Shown: positions 25,894 through 33,522 of the stretch, piece after piece
Layout of the letters: every line of letters begins with the position of its first letter
Position numbering within the stretch: position 1 is the first letter of the stretch
Assembly (NCBI RefSeq): GCF_003545695.1
Contig: NZ_QUZZ01000003.1
Span: forward strand, 372,001-436,000
DNA: 64,000 nucleotides
DNA from: Taibaiella helva
GTDB lineage: Bacteria; Bacteroidota; Bacteroidia; Chitinophagales; Chitinophagaceae
Direction of reading: 5' to 3'
Notes under the pieces: generated by a model
The model's database searches: none
The model's input: the letters and a program-made list of their open reading frames with translations, nothing else
Told to the model about the DNA's origin: nothing
Position numbers and translations under genes: made by a program

Positions 25894-26898
25894 TTATTCC
25901 TGTTCGCTCACCGTCTCCGTGGTTCCTGTTGCTTTCTCTGCCTTTTTCTTGCCCCTGTTGTCGCGGGCCATGCGTGAATACACCGAGATCTTCTTGTCGA
26001 AAAGGAACTGGAACAGCAATACGGTATAAGAAGTGTGATAACCCAAGGTGTTGTAGTATTGTCCGGCAAATTTGCGGATCTTGGGCAGCTTATTCCAGGG
26101 AACGGAAGGGAAATCATGGTGCTCGTTGTGATAGCCTACATTGAGGTTAACGGTATTGAGCGGGCCATAATAGCTTTTGGTTTCCTGGTCGCCATGAGTG
26201 AGGAAGTGTTCCTGTACCCAGCGCGCACCCAGCGGGTGCAGGCCGATGGAAAAAAAGAAGCTGGCCACGAGGTAAACGGTACCCTTTGCACCGAAGAAAT
26301 ACACGACAGCCGCCATGAACGCGATCTGGATGATCCAGTTGACTACAGTCCAGGCGTCGAAGATCTTGATCTCTTTGGTCAGGCGCAGGGGACGCAGGGC
26401 CTGAAACACCGGATAGAAGAGCAGCCACAAGGCTTTGCCTACTGGGGCATTATTGATCAGCTTGGCTTCCCAGCGGAAAGGCATGTCGGCGTCGACGGCT
26501 TCCACGCCCTGGAAAGAGTGATGCTTGAGGTGGTATTTGGTAAAAGAGATCGAACTGGGAAATACCTGCGGCAGATTGGCGATAAGGCTCGCAATGGTGT
26601 TCAGGGTGCGGTTCTTGAACAGCAGGTTGTGAGAGCACTCGTGAACGCATACATAGAGGGTATGGCAAGCGAAGGCGCCTACCAGGTAAGCCACTACGAA
26701 AATCGCCCACCAGGGCATGTCTTTGGTAAAATAAGAGAGGACTACCTGTATGCCTACGCACAGCAGGATAACCAGTAAAGTATAGGGATTCCTTCCGATA
26801 AGGGTCCTGATCTCGGGATGTTTCTGAATGATCTCCTTGGTACGTGCTTTATGTGGTTCAGGGTTGTCCGACCAGCGAAAAGAAGTTAATTTTGCCAT
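25894..26898 (-). CDS. Sphingolipid delta-4 desaturase-like membrane desaturase
   Basis: A 334-residue di-iron membrane desaturase. The three His boxes are complete: HECSH (86-90), HLKHH (123-127) and HNEHH (257-261). The N-terminus, with PHKARTKEIIQKHPEI followed by a hydrophobic region, and the C-terminal SYYGPLNTVNLNVGYHNEHH, HDFPSVP and ISVYSRMAR are closely similar to dihydroceramide delta-4 desaturases (DEGS1 family) of eukaryotes as I recall them. This suggests insertion of a 4,5 double bond in a ceramide, plausible because many Bacteroidota make sphingolipids. A generic acyl-lipid desaturase remains possible. The tail after 315 is Lys/Glu-rich. It has its own terminator. Confidence 0.88.
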   Translation of the reverse strand: MAKLTSFRWSDNPEPHKARTKEIIQKHPEIRTLIGRNPYTLLVILLCVGIQVVLSYFTKDMPWWAIFVVAYLVGAFACHTLYVCVHECSHNLLFKNRTLNTIASLIANLPQVFPSSISFTKYHLKHHSFQGVEAVDADMPFRWEAKLINNAPVGKALWLLFYPVFQALRPLRLTKEIKIFDAWTVVNWIIQIAFMAAVVYFFGAKGTVYLVASFFFSIGLHPLGARWVQEHFLTHGDQETKSYYGPLNTVNLNVGYHNEHHDFPSVPWNKLPKIRKFAGQYYNTLGYHTSYTVLLFQFLFDKKISVYSRMARDNRGKKKAEKATGTTETVSEQE

Positions 26899-28362: not shown

Positions 28363-29541
28363 TTAGCCTTCTTTTTTCTGGAAGAAGGACTTATCGAAAT
28401 CGAAAAGTAAAGAGAAGCGGAGGGTGTTGGACAGCGGGTTACGCGCTACGCCGGATCCGGAGGGAACCAGGTAAGAGAAGTTCAGGCCGAATACGCTGTA
28501 GCGTACACCCAAACCGCAGGTAAAGTACTGACGATCACCGTTATTCTTGTTTTCATAAAAATAACCGGCACGTACCGCAAACTGATCCTGGTACCAGTAC
28601 TCACCACCTATAGAGATGGTAGTGCCGTAGCCGGGAGGTGCTTTGGTGAAAGAGCCCAGCATGCCGGATACCACGCCGTCATTGGGAATATAACCACCCG
28701 AATCCACGCCGTTCACATCTTTATAGTAACGGGGAGCCGGAACGAGGGCCTTATTCAGATCCAGTGCGGCCGTCACTTTATTGTAAGCATCGATCTTATA
28801 GGTATATGCTGCACCCAGGCCAAGGTTGATCGGCAGGAAGTCGCGCTGGTTTTGCGAATAGCTGATCTTTGAGCCCACATTGGACAATACGGCGCCGGCG
28901 CTGAAGGTACCGCTGCGGTCTTCTGCCATTTCTTTGGTCGAGGTGTAAAAGACGCCTGCGTCTACAGCAAAGGCTTTACCCGGGCTATAAGCGCCGGCCT
29001 CGTTGGGTGCGCCTGCTGCAATGTTGGAACTGATGTAACGCATTGTCGCGCCTACCGAAAGCTGGTTGGAAAGACGGATAGAATAACCAAGGTCGAAGGA
29101 GAACTCCCTGGGCTTACCGCTACCGGCGGGTTGGGCATCGAAAGTCGTATAGTCGATATTACCCAGGTTGAAATAACGCAGAGAGGCGCTGATAGCCTGG
29201 TTGCTTTCCTTCCCGAATTTCTTGTAGGCAGAAAGATAACCCATGAAAACATCGGGAACAAGGTCTTTCAGCCAGGGAGTATAAGTTACGGAAATGCCCA
29301 TATCCTTGGGGCTCATAGCCAGCTTGGCAACATTCCAGTATTGGGCATTTGCGTCAGGAGATAAGGCGATGCCGACATCACCCATAGCGCCGCTGCGGGC
29401 ATCGGGTGAAATGCGTAAAAAGGGTACTGCGGTAGTAATTGCACCAACCCTTCCATCTACTCCGGTTCGTTGTGCGTAAGTTTGGGTACCTATTAAGCCG
29501 GTCAGCATAGTCAGCCCGACAATAGCAAAGCGTTTAGCCAT
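28363..29541 (-). CDS. porV: T9SS outer-membrane shuttle protein PorV
   Basis: A 392-residue outer-membrane beta-barrel matching PorV (LptO), which takes T9SS cargo from the translocon to the PorU sortase. After the signal peptide (TQTYAQ) comes a GRVGAITTAVPFLRISPDARSGAMGDVGIA segment typical of the family (here given in parts: AVPFLRISPDARSGAMGD), then AQYWNVAKLAM and strands to the C-terminal FLF-type end. Length fits. It lies 201 bases downstream of porU, on the same strand but with its own -7 box and a terminator between. It should service the T9SS-tailed proteins in this window. Confidence 0.93.
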   Translation of the reverse strand: MAKRFAIVGLTMLTGLIGTQTYAQRTGVDGRVGAITTAVPFLRISPDARSGAMGDVGIALSPDANAQYWNVAKLAMSPKDMGISVTYTPWLKDLVPDVFMGYLSAYKKFGKESNQAISASLRYFNLGNIDYTTFDAQPAGSGKPREFSFDLGYSIRLSNQLSVGATMRYISSNIAAGAPNEAGAYSPGKAFAVDAGVFYTSTKEMAEDRSGTFSAGAVLSNVGSKISYSQNQRDFLPINLGLGAAYTYKIDAYNKVTAALDLNKALVPAPRYYKDVNGVDSGGYIPNDGVVSGMLGSFTKAPPGYGTTISIGGEYWYQDQFAVRAGYFYENKNNGDRQYFTCGLGVRYSVFGLNFSYLVPSGSGVARNPLSNTLRFSLLFDFDKSFFQKKEG

Positions 29542-29742: not shown

Positions 29743-32700
29743 TTAACGGAGCAACACCAGTTTTTGGTATGCTTTTGCCTTGATTCCTTTAGCGGTTTTT
29801 ACATCCAGGCGGTAAAAGTATACGCCTTTAACCAGGGGTACGCCGCCTTCGCCCAGGCCATCCCAGGTTATTTCCGTACGGTTGCCGGTTGTGGTCAGGT
29901 TCTGCCTGATCACTTTAACCAGCTGGCCGGATGCGGAATAAATAGCCAGGCTTACATCCATATCCTCATTTTCCAGGTTATGCTGGAATACAAAATGGGT
30001 GATGTTGGTCATGGGGTTGGGGTAGTTGTAGAGGTCGCTGATAAAGCCCTTGTCCTGGTTCTTTACCTCAAACACTACGGTGCCTTCGCCGGAGTTGTTA
30101 TAAACATCCCATGCTTTTACACGGATGGTATGCATCCCGTCGGGGAGGTTCCGCAGCTGAAAATTGCGGATATAACCCTTCCTGTAATCGTTGGGCTCGG
30201 TGCTGAAATAGCTGCTGATGGGCATGGGATTCTGAACATCGTCGTCCAGTATCGCAACCATATCATGGCCGATAGAGCTTCCGGAAATGTTGAAGCCGTT
30301 GTCATCGTACATCTTCACAAAGAGCGTCGGGTTGGGTCCGGTTACGCCGCCATTCCTGAACTTGTCGTTGTCTATGAAAGGCTGCACGATGGGCGCATCA
30401 TTGTCTTCACCGGCTTTATCGTTGTAGCCCCCTACCGTGTAGCTGCTGTCGATGCCCGATGCATCAGTTACGTCGCTATTGGCATAATAGCTGATCTTGC
30501 CCTTGCCATAGCTGTAATTGATATCCTTGGGCGCAATAAAACTGGCTGAAAAGTGGCCGCCGGTCACGGTGCCCTGTACATTGGCGACAACAGTGGTCTG
30601 CAGAGGAAAGCTGGCAGTAGTGTTTGGATCGGGGTTTACCGTCTGGACTTTGCGCATTTTATCATAGATAGTCACATATACAACACCATTGAAGTCGTTC
30701 AGCACATTATCGTTCTGGTCTTTCACAAAGCCGCTGAGCACATACCGGCCCAATGCTTTGATGGTATCCGTATCAAATGCGCTGCCGTCCTGTTCCATCT
30801 GGAGCTTTTCGGTAACCACTTTGTGCACGGGCATAGCGATATAGAGGGCAGGGTCGCCCAGCACGGCATATTTGTGGTTGTTCATGGGGTCGTTGATAAA
30901 AGTAGTTTTTCCTGTACGCAGCGCTTCGCCCAGGTTGCGCCATTTCCCTTGTGCGTCTTTACCAAACTGCGCATGCGTGTAGGCAGTATTGAGGCTTTTA
31001 TTGGGACCGGGATAAACCACCTGCGTGGTCGTGATCATGGCGATAGCGCCATATTCGGGGCTTATGGTGAGCTTGGCGCCGGCTGAACGCTGCCCGGGGT
31101 CGTCGAAGCGGCCGAAGTCGCAGGTGGCTGTAACCATTACGGGCAGCTTATCCTTATTTTTCCAGGCATTATAGTCTTCAGAGGTAAGGATAGCTTCGTG
31201 GGCCCAGCGCTCGGGACTACCATGGCCGGTATAGCTGGCGAGCACGGTGCCGGCGGCAATCTGGTCATCTGTTGCTTTATTAGCCGTAGGATAACGGGGT
31301 CCCGCAGGTGTGCTGACCTCGCTCATGGCATCACAATAGATCTTGTACACATTATACACATTAGCCGAATCGTAGAAAAAACGGTTTACTGTTTCGCAGT
31401 CATCAAGGTGGTTCATCGAATTATTCTTCTCGGTAGCCATGTTGTCATGGTCGTCGGCAATATAGGTGACCACATTTTTCCAGGGGCCGAAGGAGGCCGG
31501 GCTGACATAGTGCTTTACCTTGTTGACATAATCCTGAGCTTCCTGGGCAGTATAGGCCGGTATCCTCCCGGTGCCTACATCTACGATATGAAGTGTCGGG
31601 TACAGTAAAGGATCGGCATTGATATCATCATTTTCATCCAGCAGCGCAAAGAAGTCGTCTGAAGAAAAGGCCGAAGTGCTCATCGTGCTGTTATACGTCT
31701 CGTAGGTGGGGACAAAATTGGTGTTGAAGCCGATGCGGTTTTTATAGTCGTAGGAAGCTGCTCCCATAAACAATACGTTCCGGATCATACCGGCTCCGCT
31801 GCTCTGTGCGCGGTTGTAGAACATGCGGACAAAGTTGCGGATACCGCCGATGTCCTGCCCGCCGGAAGAAAACTCATTGTAGATCTGGCCCAGGGGCACC
31901 ACGGCTACGGTTATCCCGTCTTTCTGGCGGTGAAAGTTGGCCAGGTCTTCAGATGCTGCCCTGAACGCTTCCGGCGTTACGATCAGGAAGTCGACCTGAC
32001 TCATGCCGTGCAGGTCCTGGTTGGCCACATTGCCTATAGCAACAGGAGTGCCGTACTGGCTGCCGTCGTATGCGATAAATTCCTTGAGGCTTTTACCAGC
32101 CCTGGAAAAAGTATAGCTGCCGCTGCCCGGGCTGCCCTCCAGGTTGACCGGCGAAAAGGGGTTGGTAATATCCCATACTTTCAGGCTGCCTGGTGCATTC
32201 TGCAGCGTATAAGAAGCGTTTTCGCCTGCCGGAATAGTGGTGCTCTGCCAGGAACGGAAGGCAAGCTGGGGGCCGGAAAATACCGGCTGCCGCTTATAGT
32301 TGAAGCAGACATAGTCAACATAAGCCGCTCCTGTACCGGAGGGGAAGTACTGGAACCTTAAGGGAACCGGGCCGCTGCCTCCCGGAGCGTCGACGGAATC
32401 AAGCCTGGTGCTGGGAAAAATGAGCAGATCTTCATTTGGCGCCTGCCCCAGGATTGATGTGGCTACCGTTACATTATTAAAGCTCATCCTCAGGCTGTTG
32501 CCACTGTTGGTGTTGATATTGCCTACATTGGACCTGATCCTGATCTTGCCAACAGCAGGCCCCAGGTTCACATTCATGGTTTGCGAAGGATTGCTGGTTC
32601 CGATAGAGTTCATTTTATAGCCCCACCACATCTTTCCTATAGAGCCAAGGTTAAAGCTGTCGCTGTCGATCAGGTAGTAGTCGTCGAAGGTGGAAACATT

Positions 32701-33522
32701 GAGCGTTGCCGGCGCTGTGGCAGCTTCGCTGGTAATGCGCTTGCCCGGTCCGAGATCAAAGTTCAGGAAATAATAGCTCTGGTTCTCGTAATAGTTGCTG
32801 GTGTGATTGAAGCTTTGATTCACAGAATCCTTGCTCCATAAGGTGGGGCCATTGGCATAGAACAGTACATAATCGCCGGGAGCGAAGCTGCTGCCGGAGC
32901 TCTGTACCAGGATGGCATTTTCGATCAGGTCCTCGGGCTGATCGTTGGTTACTTTTTCGGGCAATACCGTACCGCCGTTGCCATAAACACGGATATTGGC
33001 CGGGTCGATGCCAGCCGGGTTGATGCCCATGCTTTGCAGGAAATTGTAATCGATCTTGTAAATGCCCCGGGAAGGCACCGCGATCTTGTACCAGGTGCCC
33101 GATGCCAGCACCGAATGCGGCACATCCGTCGGCTTTTGAACAATGTTGCCTGAACCGTCGTCCGTTTCGGTTACCTCCAGGTCGAAGGAGACCAGGCGTT
33201 CCGCGCGACCGTCAACGATACGGTAGGCAGGTATCTGCACAAAAGCCATCATTTGTTTGCGCTCTATACCCGTAAAGATGTCCGGCTCAAAGCCACCGGT
33301 CTTCCTGACGCCGGCAGGTACAGCAGCTACAGGCTCTGTCTTTACGTTAATCAATTTTACAATAGGAGTGCTGTTGTATTTCAGTTGGATCTTCTCCGAT
33401 ACGACGCCCTTATTGGTATTGTAGCTATTAACGGTATGATGGGATACCACTACTTTTTGTTGTGCCGAGAGGCAAAAGGGAACTGCGCCAAGCAACCAAA
33501 CACACAAGAAAAATTTCTTCAT
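29743..33522 (-). CDS. porU: T9SS sortase PorU (C25 peptidase)
   Basis: A 1259-residue gingipain-like (C25) cysteine peptidase that acts as the T9SS sortase: it cuts the sorting tail and attaches cargo at the cell surface. The catalytic pair is visible as His767 in SYTGHGSPERW and Cys801 in VTATCDFGRFDDP, 34 residues apart. The signal peptide ends LSAQ, the N-terminal 450 residues are the large PorU-specific region, and the last 85 residues form its own T9SS-like tail (LYNYPNPMTNITHFVFQ). Length is typical. porV follows, as in other Bacteroidota. Confidence 0.95.
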   Translation of the reverse strand: MKKFFLCVWLLGAVPFCLSAQQKVVVSHHTVNSYNTNKGVVSEKIQLKYNSTPIVKLINVKTEPVAAVPAGVRKTGGFEPDIFTGIERKQMMAFVQIPAYRIVDGRAERLVSFDLEVTETDDGSGNIVQKPTDVPHSVLASGTWYKIAVPSRGIYKIDYNFLQSMGINPAGIDPANIRVYGNGGTVLPEKVTNDQPEDLIENAILVQSSGSSFAPGDYVLFYANGPTLWSKDSVNQSFNHTSNYYENQSYYFLNFDLGPGKRITSEAATAPATLNVSTFDDYYLIDSDSFNLGSIGKMWWGYKMNSIGTSNPSQTMNVNLGPAVGKIRIRSNVGNINTNSGNSLRMSFNNVTVATSILGQAPNEDLLIFPSTRLDSVDAPGGSGPVPLRFQYFPSGTGAAYVDYVCFNYKRQPVFSGPQLAFRSWQSTTIPAGENASYTLQNAPGSLKVWDITNPFSPVNLEGSPGSGSYTFSRAGKSLKEFIAYDGSQYGTPVAIGNVANQDLHGMSQVDFLIVTPEAFRAASEDLANFHRQKDGITVAVVPLGQIYNEFSSGGQDIGGIRNFVRMFYNRAQSSGAGMIRNVLFMGAASYDYKNRIGFNTNFVPTYETYNSTMSTSAFSSDDFFALLDENDDINADPLLYPTLHIVDVGTGRIPAYTAQEAQDYVNKVKHYVSPASFGPWKNVVTYIADDHDNMATEKNNSMNHLDDCETVNRFFYDSANVYNVYKIYCDAMSEVSTPAGPRYPTANKATDDQIAAGTVLASYTGHGSPERWAHEAILTSEDYNAWKNKDKLPVMVTATCDFGRFDDPGQRSAGAKLTISPEYGAIAMITTTQVVYPGPNKSLNTAYTHAQFGKDAQGKWRNLGEALRTGKTTFINDPMNNHKYAVLGDPALYIAMPVHKVVTEKLQMEQDGSAFDTDTIKALGRYVLSGFVKDQNDNVLNDFNGVVYVTIYDKMRKVQTVNPDPNTTASFPLQTTVVANVQGTVTGGHFSASFIAPKDINYSYGKGKISYYANSDVTDASGIDSSYTVGGYNDKAGEDNDAPIVQPFIDNDKFRNGGVTGPNPTLFVKMYDDNGFNISGSSIGHDMVAILDDDVQNPMPISSYFSTEPNDYRKGYIRNFQLRNLPDGMHTIRVKAWDVYNNSGEGTVVFEVKNQDKGFISDLYNYPNPMTNITHFVFQHNLENEDMDVSLAIYSASGQLVKVIRQNLTTTGNRTEITWDGLGEGGVPLVKGVYFYRLDVKTAKGIKAKAYQKLVLLR

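Follow-up and report, generated by a model that had tools for sequence, protein, structure and literature searches.

The desaturase gene and its surroundings

The window, by which we mean the whole stretch of 64,000 nucleotides of Taibaiella helva DNA that was analysed, contains a desaturase gene on its minus strand. The gene, its domains and motifs, and two neighbouring genes of the type IX secretion system are placed as follows.

25894-26898, minus strand: DES/DEGS-family desaturase gene, 334 aa, ATG start (open reading frame, Pfam, trees, purifying selection)
26782-26886, minus strand: N-terminal Lipid_DES domain (PF08557), residues 5-39, 53.2 bits against a cut-off of 23
26065-26715, minus strand: FA_desaturase domain (PF00487), residues 62-278, Pfam 1.9e-28
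26629-26643, minus strand: first His box, HECSH, residues 86-90, both histidines invariant in the 18-row and 12-row alignments
26518-26532, minus strand: second His box, HLKHH, residues 123-127, three histidines invariant in both alignments
26116-26130, minus strand: third His box, HNEHH, residues 257-261, all five residues invariant in both alignments
26218-26229, minus strand: GARW, residues 224-227; here the 12-row alignment shows another stretch, with H-F at its end, in DEGS1 and in two DEGS-like bacterial rows
28363-29541, minus strand: PorV, type IX secretion system
29743-33522, minus strand: C25-peptidase protein, type IX secretion system

The 18-row alignment is alignment A1; the 12-row alignment consists of 11 bacterial rows and a provisional sequence of human DEGS1. 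In the Pfam search of the 334-residue reading frame both domain signals are well above chance (2e-14 for Lipid_DES, 1.9e-28 for FA_desaturase), and an NCBIfam scan of the desaturase returned only matches far below the cut-offs, to other desaturase- or hydroxylase-like families. An earlier note on this DNA had claimed three His boxes and quoted further strings from the protein. The boxes are present and intact, and the minus-strand reading frame, for which the note had given no strand, contains PHKARTKEIIQKHPEI, starting at residue 15, SYYGPLNTVNLNVGYHNEHHDFPSVP, starting at 242, and, at residues 304-312, ISVYSRMAR. A profile search of the genome (4.8 Mb, 34 contigs) gives ten FA_desaturase matches and a single Lipid_DES match.

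Among the loci listed, the nearest named relatives are Taibaiella chishuiensis (92%) and T. lutea (85%), both Chitinophagaceae. Between the T. chishuiensis gene and that of the window the identity is 80% for DNA and 92% for protein, with dN equal to 0.058 and dS of about 2, which is near saturation. The gene is under strong purifying selection, and is kept by selection.

Around the desaturase lie genes for a DUF502 protein, a YgbB-family protein (IspF), PorV, the C25-peptidase protein (which we take, from its place, to be PorU-like), an outer-membrane barrel and a DUF72 protein; no sphingolipid gene adjoins the desaturase in the window. A conserved neighbourhood was considered as a clue to the substrate and set aside: besides the desaturase, no protein cluster occurs in more than 9 of 81 stretches, these being 80 named loci, some of them short, and the window itself.

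The AlphaFold2 model, made from a 39-row alignment, is of fair confidence (pLDDT 79.5, pTM 0.81), and is low in the tail and around residues 254-259, where the third His box begins. Foldseek searches against the PDB gave loose matches to 8xks_K (6.8e-5), which belongs to a motor complex, and to AlkB (8f6t, 0.07) and SCD1 (6wf2, 0.55), which are iron enzymes and both weak fold matches. A viral structure library returned giant-virus desaturases at 10-14% identity, and a search by sequence found no solved relative at E up to 1. With matches as loose as these, the fold search adds little.

Distribution of the family

The Lipid_DES domain was found in 40 of 395 Bacteroidota genomes, representing 26 of 171 genera, with one match in each genome, and in none of 14 control genomes. 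In a second phylum it occurs in 6 of 79 genomes, including the genome (G396) that was reached through locus L090, from a record bearing the title candidate division KSB1. The named scan confirmed at least 580 loci from at least 597 pattern matches, 80 of which were kept for comparison. The carriers among the matches listed include Taibaiella, Terrimonas, Olivibacter, Pedobacter, Mucilaginibacter, Arachidicoccus, Chitinophaga, Puia and Sediminibacterium.

One locus, L038, comes from a record titled as an Azovibrio restrictus MAG, and encodes a desaturase 77% identical to that of the window. A draw centred on this genome, meant to sample another phylum, brought up members of the window's own phylum over again; we give it no weight as fresh evidence, and the title of the record therefore looks wrong. 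Carriage by viruses or plasmids was also considered: no case was confirmed in viral contigs, phages had no match, and a cyanobacterial plasmid gave one distant desaturase, 26% identical over 71% of the query.

Place of the window protein within the family

By BLASTP, the window protein is 38.6% identical over 319 aa (E 3e-76) to human DEGS1, and 37.1% identical over about 320 aa to human DEGS2, the sequences of both human proteins being provisional. On PF08557 the provisional DEGS1 sequence scores 74.3 bits, and thus behaves as a member of the family; by the same measure a bacterial protein of family f24, L002, scores 65.6 bits and the window protein 53.2. Domain order and the three His boxes are common to the window protein and the two human enzymes, and 54 columns are identical in all rows of the 12-row alignment (11 bacterial, and the provisional DEGS1). 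The provisional DEGS2 sequence, which lies outside both alignments, has HVEHH as its third box, with V replacing N.

At eight columns the window's branch, represented by six rows, stands apart from DEGS1 and a pair of DEGS-like bacterial proteins; these columns include 226-227, where the branch has R-W and the others have H-F. Both R226 and W227 hold throughout the six rows, and the f24 C and f43 rows share them, while A225 varies. Thus the window protein, which is bacterial and whose activity is a prediction, differs from DEGS1 at 226-227, and in the 12-row alignment its branch departs from DEGS1 beside the conserved E230-H231 pair.

The trees contain two eukaryotic rows only, human DEGS1 and DEGS2, both provisional sequences. 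In the unrooted tree of 57 rows these two, together with four f24 proteins (L002-L005), are split from all others with support 100/100, so that within the family the window protein falls off the branch that holds eukaryotic DEGS. Adding four acyl desaturases of the same genome as an outgroup leaves human DEGS with L002-L005 (99/92) and sets the window's branch apart (94/98); the basal fork of this tree is open and its outgroup branches are very long. A topology that unites the eight f24 rows in a single clade is rejected (p-AU 0.0065, in a test named after the first tree had been seen).

Pairwise identities follow the same division. L002 is 49% identical to the provisional DEGS1, 42% identical to the window protein and at most 46% identical to rows of the window's branch; for L003-L005 the values are 43% to the provisional DEGS1 and about 40% to the window protein. 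The four proteins are from the same phylum as the window protein, and L002 has the same two Pfam domains, but they branch with human DEGS whereas the window protein does not.

According to these comparisons of sequence, the window gene belongs to the DES family and sits on one of its bacterial branches, and the eukaryotic enzyme joins another. What the earlier note observed is confirmed, as is its choice of family. The earlier note had proposed a tree as a check and a grouping with general acyl desaturases as the refuting outcome; that outcome is absent, since the protein groups with DEGS and apart from acyl desaturases. Its further claim of a close resemblance to eukaryotic DEGS is unsupported in that form: the protein is a family member, 39% identical to the provisional DEGS1, but among bacterial proteins it is not notably close to the eukaryotic enzyme, a different branch standing nearer to human DEGS. 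Because human DEGS joins that different branch, and because the family is widespread, a eukaryote-like framing is too strong for the window gene. The L002 gene (1495-2442, genome G191), together with L003-L005, makes a better case for exchange between bacteria and eukaryotes than does the gene in the window.

Precursor genes in the genome

The genome has five alpha-oxoamine synthase matches. One is KBL by its equivalog model, one is BioF as judged by eye from its biotin-gene neighbours, and two are serine palmitoyltransferases (SPT) which pass the NCBIfam equivalog at 706 and 731 bits, the cut-off being 640. The higher-scoring SPT lies on the contig of the window.

C27:470587-471792 (the window being C27:372001-436000): SPT, equivalog, with genes for a GNAT protein and then an NAD-epimerase after it

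This row of SPT, GNAT and epimerase is 34.6 kb past the end of the window. Of the genes that the earlier note had suggested seeking in the same genome, SPT is thus present twice above the equivalog cut-off; for ceramide synthase we can offer the GNAT protein adjoining SPT as a candidate, with the epimerase as a candidate reductase, both assigned by role and gene order. The capacity to make dihydroceramide accordingly consists of an SPT identified by equivalog model and of partners that are candidates only. The first SPT paralogue (C31:119586-120764) has a GcvH-like gene upstream, and is not followed by GNAT and epimerase genes.

A similar arrangement occurs in five of the six other carriers covered (G051, G124, G236, G384 and G191), in whose SPT stretches a GNAT gene adjoins SPT and an epimerase gene is present. 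In the sixth, G070, the SPT on contig C4 has neither, and a bCerS-like match on contig C15 directly follows its other SPT match.

In Caulobacter the dihydroceramide route comprises Spt, the acyltransferase bCerS and CerR, which has homology to NDUFA9, according to the part of PMC11087976 that describes it. Set beside that account by description only, the order of SPT, GNAT and epimerase in the window's genome fits the roles given there; the word ‘desaturase’ has no occurrence in the text of the paper.

The fifth alpha-oxoamine synthase match of the genome is a protein like cysteate acyltransferase (CFAT), the entry enzyme of the sulfonolipid (capnine) pathway, with best PDB matches 7u7h (613.7 bits) and 28eh (572.3 bits), versus 226 for SPT; 28eh is named cysteate-C-fatty acyltransferase. 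Those parts of the sulfonolipid literature that were covered assign no desaturase to the capnine/CFAT pathway. Since the genome holds SPT with candidate partners and CFAT as well, the substrate of the desaturase could be dihydroceramide, N-acyl-capnine or both.

Proposed reaction

The best explanation, and one that we consider reasonably probable, is that the window protein, a member of the DES/DEGS family, is a membrane-bound di-iron enzyme, dependent on O2, which oxidises C4-C5 of the long-chain base in an N-acylated sphingoid-type lipid; dihydroceramide is most likely its main substrate, and N-acyl-capnine a second likely one. The product would most likely be a 4,5 double bond. Among the possible reactions we rank desaturation of dihydroceramide as most likely, N-acyl-capnine next, and hydroxylation third.

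The iron-oxo chemistry of the DEGS family suggests how the reaction would proceed. SPT, a GNAT-type ceramide synthase and an epimerase-like reductase would make dihydroceramide; then, in the base of this N-acylated lipid, an iron-oxo species would abstract a hydrogen, and loss of the neighbouring hydrogen would give the 4,5 double bond, whereas rebound would instead give a 4-hydroxyl. A reaction model for bifunctional desaturase/hydroxylase enzymes is given in part of PMC10140171.

We find the ceramide hypothesis plausible, with support from the genome; to judge from its genes, the strain may make animal-like unsaturated sphingolipids. In favour of it stand the Lipid_DES domain, the grouping with DEGS, the invariant histidines, the fold model with its weak matches to iron enzymes, the SPT genes with their gene order, the frequency of SPT in the window's clade, and carriers that have SPT or an SPT-like gene but no CFAT match. 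Against it stand the lack of sphingolipid genes or of any recurring neighbour beside the desaturase, carriers that have no SPT over the cut-off, and the SPT of G070 on contig C4 with neither partner. The computations show the family, the intact boxes, the selection and the genes for SPT and cysteate acyltransferase, from which the di-iron chemistry, the regiochemistry, the substrate and the parts played by GNAT and epimerase are inferred. Within the interpretation of the earlier note, the DEGS grouping and the SPT with its candidate synthase and reductase hold up, but the emphasis on something especially eukaryote-like does not, as the family is widespread in bacteria.

Co-occurrence of the desaturase with SPT and CFAT

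In the counts below, SPT denotes a match over the equivalog cut-off and CFAT a match at 1e-100, and the same-class sample comprises 98 of the 395 genomes, including kin of the same family and order. SPT is present in 18 of the 98 and CFAT in 91. Of the 11 genomes that have both, 9 carry the desaturase; so do 6 of the 80 that have CFAT alone, and none of the 7 that have SPT alone. Put differently, 9 of 15 carriers have SPT, versus 9 of 83 non-carriers (Fisher p 8.6e-5, related genomes being counted separately). Because kin are counted apart in this way, we keep the association of SPT with the desaturase within the class as a hint only. Two other associations were rejected as evidence, since they are uninformative: that with CFAT, given its base rate of 91/98 in the class, and that with a bCerS-like GNAT, which is found in 378 of 395 genomes at 1e-30.

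Outside the class there are 25 carriers, all having an SPT-like match (E 2.7e-143 or better) that is under the equivalog cut-off, as do most genomes there that are without the desaturase; hardly any of the sampled Bacteroidota genomes lacks an SPT-like match. Eight of these carriers, of f24, have a CFAT-like match at 47-50% identity, and 17, of f17, f35 and f43, have no CFAT at 1e-100. Each of the 40 carriers in the phylum sample thus has an SPT-like gene, CFAT or both, which is true of nearly every genome sampled.

A second set consists of 40 carrier genomes, 20 taken from the 31 named rows that fall in the window's clade and 20 from the remaining 48; L034 and L063 are also in the phylum sample, and L073 and L080, outside the clade, share a strain title. 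SPT is present in 16 of 20 genomes in the window's clade (13/13 non-MAG, 3/7 MAG), compared with 18 of 98 in the same-class sample, and in 10 of 20 outside the clade; CFAT is present in 17 of 20 and 18 of 20, respectively. SPT without CFAT is seen in four genomes, two from the window's clade (L058, L045) and two from outside it (L084, L096), and the MAG L039 is the sole genome of the 40 with neither. Carriers that have no SPT over the cut-off number 6 of 15 in the same-class sample and 14 of 40 in the second set. Among the latter, the four from the window's clade are all MAGs, which may be incomplete, and the ten from outside include the isolate Puia dinghuensis. With kinship uncorrected, the counts favour ceramide for the window's clade and are also compatible with sulfonolipids.

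An alternative is that the protein is mainly a sulfonolipid enzyme, which would desaturate the capnoid base of N-acyl-capnine and act on ceramide incidentally. The CFAT-like protein of the window's genome agrees with this, as does the presence of CFAT in all 15 same-class carriers, six of them having no SPT over the cut-off, and the lack of the desaturase in all seven same-class genomes that have SPT but no CFAT. But CFAT is in 91 of 98 genomes of the class, so that its company says little; the 17 carriers of f17, f35 and f43 have an SPT-like gene and no CFAT at 1e-100; L058, L045, L084 and L096 carry the desaturase with SPT and no CFAT match; and some of the seven SPT-only genomes may be anaerobes, from which an O2-dependent enzyme would be absent anyway. 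We regard a mainly sulfonolipid enzyme as unlikely.

The genome of L071, Chitinophaga rupis (G399), has a CFAT-like match with one in-frame TAA at C17:392760-394001. In most same-class CFAT genomes that have no SPT over the cut-off we find a weaker bCerS-like GNAT, at about 1e-53 to 1e-83, and in five none at 1e-30. This weaker GNAT may be the N-acyltransferase of capnine. Weak-only GNAT matches also occur in some genomes with SPT, such as G033 and family f11.

Hydroxylation and acyl desaturation as possible alternatives

Returning to desaturation of an N-acylated sphingoid base as the preferred reading, we consider whether the enzyme might instead be a C4 hydroxylase of the base, or a mixed hydroxylase/desaturase, leading to lipids of the phytosphingosine type. 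The third box of the window protein argues weakly against this, being HNEHH as in the provisional DEGS1 and not HVEHH as in the provisional DEGS2, while the departure of the window's branch from DEGS1 beside E230-H231 argues for it. Mammalian DEGS2 is a bifunctional C4-hydroxylase/desaturase, and DEGS1 does not hydroxylate despite high similarity, according to part of PMC10140171; our analysis found no sequence rule that separates hydroxylase from desaturase. A hydroxylase, pure or mixed, seems to us improbable.

That the protein is an ordinary acyl-lipid or acyl-CoA desaturase, which shares with DEGS its ancestry only, is very improbable: its catalytic domain is the general FA_desaturase, its fold matches are loose and its substrate is a prediction, but it retains the Lipid_DES domain, its closest relatives by BLASTP are not the nine other desaturases of the same genome (best E 3e-5, versus 3e-76 to the provisional DEGS1), and all 40 phylum-sample carriers have the SPT-like gene, CFAT or both that are nearly universal in the sample.

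Relation to known bacterial lipids

A wider proposal, which we advance tentatively and with rather less than even confidence, is that many aerobic Bacteroidota make 4,5-unsaturated ceramides, unsaturated sulfonolipids or both by means of DES enzymes, and that the eukaryotic sphingosine enzyme was exchanged with one bacterial branch. Through a DES family so widespread, bacteria would have a genetic route to lipids that are sphingosine-like, and to unsaturated capnoid ones. It would also provide new proteins in which DEGS chemistry could be studied, and would bear on the origin of the eukaryotic delta-4 desaturase.

Among the matches listed from the open-licence literature (titles and the starts of abstracts, most subscription papers lying outside it), no characterised bacterial DES was found. 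Flavocristamide A has a double bond in its base. This compound is mentioned in a portion of the eLife paper on RIF-1. Sphingosine bases were reported from Bacteroides thetaiotaomicron in 1975, as cited in part of PMC10626005, so that the naming of bases is an unsafe guide. No word beginning ‘desatur’ stands in the text of that review, whose section 2.2 gives dihydroceramides, ceramides, ceramide phospholipids and sulfonolipids as the sphingolipids of bacteria.
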